From positions 1-44,715 of IMG/VR virus record IMGVR_UViG_3300025645_000016: 44,715 nucleotides of DNA; one strand, 5' to 3'. Below, piece after piece: positions 2,399 through 28,781 of the stretch; the first letter of the stretch is position 1, and each line of letters begins with the position of its first letter. Below the pieces are notes generated by a model. That model had not been told where the DNA came from, did not search any database, and saw only the letters and a program-made list of their open reading frames with translations. Position numbers and translations under genes: made by a program. Origin of the DNA: a virus.

Positions 2399-4189
2399 TT
2401 ATTCTATTTCTGACCTATCAATAGATTCTACTATAGATTCCGATTCTAGAGCTAAATCGATGTAAATTTGCGTAACCTCGTCCACTATTTTCTTTTGTTC
2501 TTCGTGTGGTTTTAAAGTAAACATAGGATATTTAAACCTAATATCGTTGGTAATTTGGCTAAAGTTTAAAGCTAATGTTCGCTGTAGGCTCTTACTTGGT
2601 AATGATTGAATAATGCTAGATTTTAACTCATTATCTACAGATGAAAACGGCAAGAATTTACGCATAACATCGTGTACTTTCATAAATGCCGTATTGTGCT
2701 TATTTTGCTTTAATAAAATACGTTTATCTATGCTCTCAAGCGTCTCAGGATTCGCATTAGCATCTGTAGCTACCTTTCTAAGCATTAGTAAATCCGCTTC
2801 TGTTTCTAAATTATAGTTATTCGTGTACACTAGTCTAGGGGCAACATCTTTTATGTCTTTAGTGTCTGCTATTACTCTTATAAAGAAGTCAAAAGCAGCT
2901 ACAGGGCTTTGTGTAAAGTCGTATAGAACATCATAAGCCGTATCATAGTAGTTTTGATTCTCTGTTGCTGTTACGGCTACATTAGACTTAGTGTTTAAGT
3001 CCACACCAAAAATAGTTTTAGATATTTTACCGCTCATTTTATCAAGTTCTTCAATCTGTACCTTTAAAATCTCAATTGGTGGAGTAGAATATGCTGCTAA
3101 ATCAGACGGTTTAATATTGTTTTCTCCATCTTTAATAGCCAACTGTATAACACTTTGACCGCTTGTCATTGTCTTCCCTCCTGTCCCTTTGCAAACGTGG
3201 CAACTGTTACCGCTTGGCTGTAGCGTACCACCCTTACATTGATTACCGCTGTGTATATCTACATAGTCACATGGTTGGTAATACTCGTATCGCATTGGGA
3301 ACGTGTGCAAAAATGTTGTTATATCCTTCATACTGCCTAAATCTACTAACTCTTTATAGTTAGGCATAGCATTGTGCCAATATGATACAAAAGACGTGTT
3401 ATTTGTAATAGGGTCTTTAATATAGCCGTACTGATGTAAAGGTAAAAAGTCTAAAGGATTCTCATACGCAAAAGTATAGTATATCTTCTCTTCTATCATT
3501 TCAGAAGATACAGCCTGTTCAAAGTTGTAAGCCTCGTAGTAGTTAGAATTATCTAATATATCTTTTATTAACTCAAAAGTAACGTAATACAATCCGTTTG
3601 ACTCAAAAGTATAATAAACTGGAACATCTTTAGCTAGTAGTTTCTTTTCTTTGAAGTACGAAACAGAATCTAGATTGAATAAAACAGCTTCTATTATTGC
3701 ACCTTTATTTTTGTTAATCCAATATACATTTTTTGAACTAAACAAAGAAGGATTAAAACTATCATCGCCTTGTGGGTTGTTGTAATACTTAATCCAAGTT
3801 ACACTATTAGGATCAATAGTATTTTGTAGTAATGATTCGCTTTCTATGTAATCTAGTAACTGTTCGCCATTACTGCCTAGTTGATTAGTATATACAGATA
3901 TAGCCTTTGTAACTTCTTCTTTAGATGAATACTCGAACTTTTGTTTATCTGCTCTAAATACACGCTTTATTTGATTAGCGTTTCTTGCTACTTCTGCACC
4001 TGTTCTAAATTGTGTAAGCCTTACCCTTTGTTCTTTTTCCTCTTTTGTTTCTTGTTTCCTTAGGCTAGTAATTAGCTTATCTATTCCAATACCAAAAGCA
4101 TACATGTTGTAACTATTCATAACTTCTACAGTCCTCGTATAGTTAGCGTGTCTTTGTCCTAGTATTACTCTTTTTGTTATCTCTTGCAT
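2399..4189 (-). CDS. Portal protein
   Basis: A 596-aa protein between terL and the MuF-like gene, the standard portal position. The length fits a portal, the dodecameric ring at the capsid vertex through which DNA is packaged. Typical features are the long helical C-terminal half and the segment around residues 380-410 (ISKTIFGVDLNTKSNVAVTA), which resembles the stem/clip region of Bacteroidota phage portals. Unusually, Cys307, Cys318, Cys330 and Cys333 lie in a loop containing C-H-V-C-K-G-T-G, which resembles one half of a DnaJ-type zinc knuckle. Identification is by position, size and general composition, not by a single diagnostic motif. Confidence 0.8.
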   Translation of the reverse strand: MQEITKRVILGQRHANYTRTVEVMNSYNMYAFGIGIDKLITSLRKQETKEEKEQRVRLTQFRTGAEVARNANQIKRVFRADKQKFEYSSKEEVTKAISVYTNQLGSNGEQLLDYIESESLLQNTIDPNSVTWIKYYNNPQGDDSFNPSLFSSKNVYWINKNKGAIIEAVLFNLDSVSYFKEKKLLAKDVPVYYTFESNGLYYVTFELIKDILDNSNYYEAYNFEQAVSSEMIEEKIYYTFAYENPLDFLPLHQYGYIKDPITNNTSFVSYWHNAMPNYKELVDLGSMKDITTFLHTFPMRYEYYQPCDYVDIHSGNQCKGGTLQPSGNSCHVCKGTGGKTMTSGQSVIQLAIKDGENNIKPSDLAAYSTPPIEILKVQIEELDKMSGKISKTIFGVDLNTKSNVAVTATENQNYYDTAYDVLYDFTQSPVAAFDFFIRVIADTKDIKDVAPRLVYTNNYNLETEADLLMLRKVATDANANPETLESIDKRILLKQNKHNTAFMKVHDVMRKFLPFSSVDNELKSSIIQSLPSKSLQRTLALNFSQITNDIRFKYPMFTLKPHEEQKKIVDEVTQIYIDLALESESIVESIDRSEIE

Positions 4190-27845: not shown

Positions 27846-27852
27846 AAAACTT

Positions 27853-27941
27853 AAATAGAATATTGACTTATGTCGGAGTGTATAGTGTGTTATATGTAAA
27901 GTCGCAGACGCTCTTGGGTAGTGGATAATCCTATTCTATTT
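27853..27941. repeat. Inverted repeat enclosing a 69-nt spacer
   Basis: The 10-bp arm AAATAGAATA (27853-27862) is perfectly complementary to 27932-27941. Inside are smaller hairpins (GAC-UUAU-GUC; GGA-UAA-UCC). No ORF is present. It separates the 99-aa gene from the three-gene group that follows and may be a structured RNA or a recombination-site relic. Confidence 0.5.
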
Positions 27942-27959
27942 TGATAAACTTAGAAAACT

Positions 27960-28190
27960 TTGATGATGAAACGATATTTAGCTTTTTATGGCGATGATTA
28001 CTACCCTGTTGGTGGTATGAATGACTTTATAAATGATTATGAAACTTTAGAAGATTGCGAAAAAGCGATTAAAATAAAACATAAAGAAAATAGACCTGAG
28101 GATATAGAATGGGAATTTGCTTGGAAACAAATATGGGATTCTAAAAAAAGAGAATTTATTGTAAATACTTTTTATCAGCATAACGCATAA
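27960..28190 (+). CDS. Hypothetical protein, 76 aa (cassette-like gene 1)
   Basis: Start at 27960 or the adjacent ATG at 27963 (MKRYLAFYGDDYYPVGGMND). Acidic, aromatic-rich. The pattern YLAFYGDDYYPVGGMNDFI and a later EWEFAWKQIWDS resemble small Bacteroidota proteins of unknown role. Its stop TAA is immediately followed by CGG and opens a large palindrome, the feature it shares with the next two genes. Confidence 0.6.
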   Translation: MMMKRYLAFYGDDYYPVGGMNDFINDYETLEDCEKAIKIKHKENRPEDIEWEFAWKQIWDSKKREFIVNTFYQHNA

Positions 28191-28278
28191 CGGTTTGTGT
28201 ATGGTGAGTAGCCGACACCTAAAACTTGGCTATTTAAACAAATGTTTAATCGGCTATTTACTATATTTTGTGTTAGCC
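28188..28278 (+). other. attC-like palindromic spacer after gene 1
   Basis: It begins with TAACGG, whose TAA is the stop of the preceding gene, and ends GTTAGCC (28272-28278). Between them 28200-28215 pairs with 28250-28265 along 16 bp with three G-U pairs. A central hairpin TTAAACA-AA-TGTTTAA (28234-28249) follows. TAAC...GTTA ends with an imperfect palindrome between are the layout of integron attC sites, although the core bases do not fit the RYYYAAC/GTTRRRY consensus exactly. Confidence 0.5.
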
Positions 28279-28293
28279 ACAGTTAATTTAATT

Positions 28294-28503
28294 ATGGAAA
28301 GAATTATTCAACAACTAAAAGAGCAGCGAGAAAAAGCTGAAAAGACATTCATTAAAAACAGCTTAATAAAAAGAAACTGCAAGTTTGATGCACCTTGCCC
28401 TGATGTAGATGCTGACTTGGACGCTATTGGCGAACTGAACCAAGCGATAAGTATATTAGAAAACTATGGTGCTACGAAAGAGCCTGTTTCTAATTGTGGA
28501 TAA
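28294..28503 (+). CDS. Hypothetical helical protein, 69 aa (cassette-like gene 2)
   Basis: From the ATG at 28294 (MERIIQQLKEQREKAEKTFI). A longer reading from 28195 would translate the palindrome and is rejected. Helical, with a Cys-containing loop (KRNCKFDAPCPDVDADLD). Stop TAA followed by CGT. No family. Confidence 0.6.
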   Translation: MERIIQQLKEQREKAEKTFIKNSLIKRNCKFDAPCPDVDADLDAIGELNQAISILENYGATKEPVSNCG

Positions 28504-28521
28504 CGTATGATTATATGGTTA
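28501..28521 (+). other. Short TAAC...GTTA spacer after gene 2
   Basis: TAACGTATGATTATATGGTTA: the stop codon again begins TAACG, and GTTA closes the element 14 nt later. It is far shorter than the spacer after gene 1. It is a possible reduced form of the same site. Confidence 0.35.
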
Positions 28522-28549
28522 GATTTTTAACGGATTAAATAGAAAAATT

Positions 28550-28696
28550 ATGAATGAGAAAGCAGAATTTGCAGTAGAAATACTAAAGGAATATGCAAAA
28601 CAAAACCAAGTACTGCCAAGAAGTACAAGCGACCTATCTAAATTAGAAGAATGGTTGATTATAGAACTATTTAGAGTTAAAAAATTAACTATATAA
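28550..28696 (+). CDS. Small hypothetical protein, 48 aa (cassette-like gene 3)
   Basis: ATG at 28550, TAA at 28694-28696 followed by CG. MNEKAEFAVEILKEYAKQNQ and a second helix (LSKLEEWLIIELFRVKKLTI). Fully helical. It is the last plus-strand gene, followed by the convergent terminator. No family. Confidence 0.5.
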   Translation: MNEKAEFAVEILKEYAKQNQVLPRSTSDLSKLEEWLIIELFRVKKLTI

Positions 28697-28749
28697 CGTG
28701 TTGTTTTTTTTTAATTGCACACAACTACCCACTAAACGCAATAACACAA

Positions 28750-28781
28750 AAAGCCTACTATAAATCACTATAGTAGGCTTT
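28750..28781. terminator. Bidirectional terminator between the two convergent blocks
   Basis: A perfect 13-bp stem, AAAGCCTACTATA (28750-28762) with its complement at 28769-28781, loop 6 nt, followed by T-rich sequence on both strands. It ends the rightward early block and the leftward virion block, preventing transcriptional collision. Confidence 0.85.

Follow-up and report, generated by a model that had tools for sequence, protein, structure and literature searches.

A probable integrase-less array of integron-type gene cassettes among the early genes of a flavobacterial phage

Introduction

Small consecutive early genes of a phage, each ending in a stop codon fused to the edge of a palindromic spacer, raise the question of whether such genes are cassettes of the type found in integrons, gene-capture systems familiar from antibiotic resistance, and which enzyme would move them. 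This arrangement was pointed out by a sequence-only reading of the virus record IMGVR_UViG_3300025645_000016 (44,715 nucleotides; hereafter the window, meaning the whole stretch of DNA analysed), which proposed captured host cassettes or an exchange site for small early genes, although the core bases deviate and no integrase is present.

According to surveys, Bacteroidetes contain almost no integrons (PMC9024848), and Salinibacter is the only member of Bacteroidetes proper for which IntegronFinder 2.0 lists a complete integron (PMC9024848); the same program found no integron in one Tenacibaculum genome (PMC10013915). Regarding phages, Qi et al. 2023 (PMC9892861) describe attC clusters lacking an integrase (CALINs) in virulent phages, among them Polaribacter phage P12002L, two attC sites of which were assayed with IntI1, one of them giving verified junctions; Cellulophaga and Flavobacteriaceae are not mentioned in the main text of that report.

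Organization of the locus

The features of the locus are listed below, with window coordinates and strand.

27963..28190, + strand: gene 1 (75 aa), its TAA stop overlapping the AAC box of site 1; matches PHROG 1411, function unknown
28189..28274, + strand: site 1, an attC-like hairpin with AAC box 28189-28191, stem arms 28200-28215 and 28250-28265, and GTT box 28272-28274
28272..28504, + strand: cassette body, GTTAGCCACAGTTA ... TAATTGTGGATAAC, with mutually complementary terminal bases
28294..28503, + strand: cassette gene (69 aa, function unknown); four other viral contigs and Maribacter sp. MMG018 encode homologs
28502..28518, + strand: left half of site 2, with AAC box 28502-28504 and box TTATATGG at 28511-28518
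28550..28696, + strand: gene 3 (48 aa, function unknown), apparently in the loop of site 2
28689..28702, + strand: right half of site 2, with box CTATATAA at 28689-28696 and GTT box 28700-28702
28750..28781, no strand assigned: strong terminator-like 13-bp hairpin, closing the early gene block between + strand early genes and - strand genes

As the sequence-only reading had noted, the three small early genes end in TAA directly followed by CG (stops at 28188-28190, 28501-28503 and 28694-28696), each forming TAACG; gene 1 has no convincing start box. The description of the first spacer also held, with a 16-bp stem, in which three pairs are G-T, and an inner hairpin; its RNA fold reached z = -3.45, with only 2 of 200 shuffles equally good. 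As DNA, the strand bias of site 1 was marginal (-8.5 vs -8.1), and a generic site detector missed the site. The inverted repeat claimed after the preceding gene (27853-27941) contains a perfect 10-bp repeat, but it was ruled out as a site and as part of the system, since it folds at shuffle level (z = -0.57) and shows neither the boxes nor the architecture of a site.

The second spacer had been taken as a short TAAC...GTTA element; its boxes are present, but we favour a reading in which it forms the left half of a larger site 2 that carries gene 3 in its loop. The half-sites flanking gene 3 are AAC-TTATATGG (left) and CTATATAA-CGT-GTT (right), and in another locus (L049), whose gene 3 protein is 93% identical, the site 2 boxes are GGGTATGG and CTATACCC, compensatory with respect to those of the window. 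Because the half-site boxes covary between the two, gene 3 (28550-28696) seems to occupy the loop of an attC-like site, within the limits of a two-sequence comparison. The window array is short and partly degenerate, with no further cassette beyond the last site. Database searches gave no Rfam family for the spacer, the sole match being a sub-threshold rteR at the terminator (28750-28781); a PADLOC run on the three window genes gave no significant match, and a plasmid search returned short chance matches only.

Complementary ends of the cassettes

In integrons, an attC site becomes whole only once its cassette has been excised as a circle, so that the start of a cassette complements its own end. 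The loci analysed display this feature, as the bases after GTT at the start of a unit are the reverse complement of those before AAC at its end; in the window cassette (gene 28294-28503), the two ends are GTTAGCCACAGTTA and TAATTGTGGATAAC. On the + strand of the window, 2,260 GTT...AACG pairs are spaced as in a cassette; only 2 of them reach 8 of 10 strictly complementary end bases, and one of these is exactly 28272/28502. Furthermore, the gene of this cassette was found in three contexts in which the ends differ yet match each other, namely GTTAGCCACC/GGTGGCTAAC, GTTAGGCAC/GTGCCTAAC and GTTAGCCACA/TGTGGCTAAC; judging from these comparisons, such differing but matched ends of one gene are compensatory change within the cassette.

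For a broader assessment, sites were located by their inner stem only, and the outer bases were then scored out of 6. Among 23 mostly phage cassettes, own ends scored 4.17/6 vs 2.05 for other pairs (p = 0.0002; permutation maximum 3.17), and the two ends of one spacer scored at chance level (2.13/6). The 115 cassettes from the chromosomal arrays of two Flavobacteriaceae genomes gave 5.58/6 for own ends vs a permutation maximum of 2.72, again with chance-level pairing across the spacer (2.3/6). Position 8 was never Watson-Crick paired, the end being always T and the start mostly G, and the window cassette is also G/T at this position. By all these sequence measures, the complementary ends of the cassettes are an instance of the integron rule.

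Spacer relatives, breakpoints and the moving unit

The sequence-only reading had proposed to look for relatives of the first spacer after unrelated genes, and these were found in phages and bacteria. The spacer of site 1 (28189-28274) is a conserved hairpin: about 15 phage contigs and three bacterial assemblies contain it, flanked by genes that are unrelated, with copies about 80-97% identical. BLAST located a copy with 80% identity in Cellulophaga phage phi18:3, where the flanking genes are unrelated to those of the window, and pattern scans added more viral contigs as well as Maribacter sp. MMG018, a Cryomorphaceae MAG and a Bacteroidota MAG. Most pairs of loci are homologous over the spacer alone, or over the spacer plus one gene. 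Judged by this conservation, the spacer is more than a chance resemblance.

Exchanges placed exactly at TAACG, as anticipated for related phages, were also observed. In three pairs (the window and the Maribacter locus L022, L003 and L013, L002 and L007), a hairpin and a gene are held in common and the sequences diverge at AACG on both sides; in a fourth (L051 and L052), 99.85% identity over 2.7 kb ends at one such box, and the sequences upstream of it are unrelated. The suggestion of a captured host cassette found its counterpart in the Maribacter chromosome, which holds a homologous cassette whose similarity to that of the window begins and ends at AACG boxes. More distant pairs that share the window gene have different hairpins on its flanks, and the phage and chromosome copies differ in the downstream hairpin. 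Because the hairpins differ around a shared gene, they must also turn over, either through exchange inside the sites or through fast hairpin decay.

The extent of the moving unit was delimited with duplicated chromosomal cassettes, comprising eight families with unrelated neighbours. In the AACG orientation, the left hairpin was 98.5% identical between copies vs 67.6% for the right one, which equals background, and this held for 104/104 pairs; identity begins at the AAC box. Moreover, the AACG strand, i.e., the would-be attC bottom strand, was the better folder in 94% of 156 chromosomal sites.

Since ends match within cassettes and duplicated cassettes bring one hairpin along, we regard the system as integron-type, and the window, from a marine flavobacterial phage, very probably carries a short array of integron-type gene cassettes that lacks an integrase; attC-type single-strand movement by a host recombinase would be the route. 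The original idea of integron-type cassettes is largely supported by the relatives of the spacer after unrelated genes, the complementary ends, the breakpoints at TAACG and the cassette common to phage and host chromosome. According to this model, a cassette would consist of a hairpin plus a gene body with two complementary ends; in the excised circle, the ends would meet at the hairpin and rebuild an attC folding on one strand, and a recombinase would then cut the AA|C (G|TT) box and insert the cassette at another such site.

One alternative is that the spacers act as short homology islands, at which the recombinases of phages exchange adjacent genes through homologous recombination with no site-specific enzyme. 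A spacer of ~90 bp common to many phages with different neighbours fits this proposal, as do the exonuclease and the SSB encoded in the window, and the breakpoints at the boxes could partly derive from homologous recombination; however, homology islands predict neither complementary ends, nor strictly one-sided travel of the hairpin, nor a recombinase beside the arrays (described below), which makes the proposal improbable. Small transposons, whose terminal inverted repeats would correspond to the 9-14-bp inverted ends of the bodies, were already disfavoured and are far less credible, as the two ends of a cassette match each other yet vary between cassettes, whereas the ends of a transposon are recognised by their sequence; the unit that travels contains the hairpin, and the arrays run head to tail on one strand. 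Just as implausible is a sole role of the spacers in the early operon as terminators of transcription or as RNA elements: although the spacer folds well as RNA, and attC-like hairpins may terminate weakly too, its conservation between unrelated genes in phages and chromosomes and the lack of an Rfam family speak against this role, which does not account for the end complementarity.

The pattern of the left box was used to evaluate the distribution of these sites. It was present in 76/101 Flavobacteriaceae genomes, with up to 57 copies vs 2 for the reversed control; in a whole-phylum sample it was found in 45/197, mostly as single matches near control level. In one genome (G017, loci L085-L091), a 438-bp cassette occurs as eleven near-identical copies dispersed over two arrays, which suggests recent or frequent copying.

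A candidate host recombinase beside the arrays

A tyrosine recombinase of ~390 aa lies at the end of large arrays in both genomes studied (L091:16622-17794 on the - strand and L099:5697-6860 on the + strand), and relatives occur in 121/250 Flavobacteriaceae genomes. In 40 recombinase loci, with flanks of up to 5 kb, the 3' side held 61 sites in one orientation and none in the opposite one, and the 5' side held 5 (61/66 on the 3' side); sites were present on the 3' side within 5 kb at 29 of the 40 loci. An earlier set with 1.5-kb flanks displayed this geometry too, in 12 loci. As the control for this association, we used the 5' side of the loci themselves, because a lower-identity recombinase group, meant as a negative control, also adjoins arrays (14/20).

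The recombinase can be aligned with IntI1, but the IntI-specific insertion is missing and the N-terminal part is longer by ~95 residues. Its best profile is XerA (NF040815; 214 bits, cut-off 220), and XerA is also its nearest solved structure (5hxy). The IntI profile (TIGR02249) found nothing above its cut-off in 300 genomes, and the IntI1 of R388 scored 507 bits as a control in the same kind of search. No relatives of the array recombinase were found in the window or in 23 related phage records, a set without a positive control. From its position, we infer that the cassettes are moved by the adjacent ~390-aa recombinase, which is thus a candidate host integrase; the phage would use this enzyme during infection to gain or swap small early genes.

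Gene orientation in phages and chromosomes

The gene lies on the AACG strand in 21/22 phage cassettes vs 9/100 chromosomal ones (Fisher p = 1e-15). Consequently, the usual integron order of a gene followed by its attC was observed in 91 of the 100 chromosomal cassettes and in 1 of the 22 from phages. A unit of hairpin plus downstream gene had been considered as a non-integron polarity, and was abandoned once the chromosomal genes proved to be on the other strand; since they are, the unit read in the direction of the gene is a gene with its own downstream attC, i.e., an ordinary integron cassette. In the Maribacter chromosome, the copy of the window cassette is likewise inverted compared with the cassettes next to it. 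We suggest that phage attC sites may be oriented against early transcription, in which case only cassettes with a flipped gene would be useful in the phage. Both this reversal of the genes relative to attC and the likely enzyme, a non-IntI host recombinase, were absent from the sequence-only reading.

Relation to known systems

The arrays resemble the sedentary chromosomal integrons of Vibrio and Xanthomonas (IntI family) in their one-strand organization, an attC rebuilt in the circle, a G|TT crossover box and an integrase beside the array. Unlike in these integrons, the flavobacterial recombinase lacks the IntI-specific domain and points into the array, the pairing at the boxes extends to ~11 bp with position 8 unpaired, and the core boxes are GTTR instead of GTTRRRY, with AAC and GTT kept. 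The deviating core bases had already been recognised: only 4/115 chromosomal cassettes match GTTRRRY, and the window has GTTAGCC. Because the core boxes deviate and the recombinase is non-IntI, the window is filed as a variant of an integron cassette array and not as a complete integron. The extra domain has been held to be required by IntI (Messier and Roy 2001, as cited in PMC9668308). Among XerA, XerC and XerD, the recombinase is nearest to XerA by profile and structure, but differs from all three in the extra N-terminal part of ~95 aa and in its location beside cassette arrays.

The CALIN of P12002L is the closest precedent in phages, as it also belongs to a virulent flavobacterial phage without integrase and has the same boxes, and we found sites of the same architecture in that genome. 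The accessible text of the report (PMC9892861) does not describe a link to a host integrase, a systematic reversal of genes or a gene in an attC loop. Our literature search, covering few subscription papers and preprints, retrieved no paper that links cassette arrays of flavobacteria to a recombinase other than IntI. Thus, attC sites in phages were already known (Qi et al. 2023), and the remainder appears to be new.

Taken more broadly, we lean slightly towards the existence of a widespread, unrecognised integron class in Flavobacteriaceae, with a XerA-like recombinase devoid of the IntI domain and arrays of tens of cassettes, with which phages would exchange cassettes while keeping a pool of flipped genes read from the early operon, some with a gene in the attC loop. 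If the adjacent recombinase moves the arrays, a major group of marine bacteria would have evolved, or retained, integron-style gene capture that does not need the IntI domain. Phages would then represent a direct route between phage and host for small early genes, DNA methylases included, and a testable system.

Two further observations concern other phages. A relative of the window cassette gene lies, judging from the flanking sequence, apparently between two terminase genes of another phage (L045, around 3001-3213). DNA methylase genes occur in cassettes of several flavobacterial phages (L004:11599-12387, L026:4050-4800 and L027:1177-1870), possibly as counter-defence cargo.
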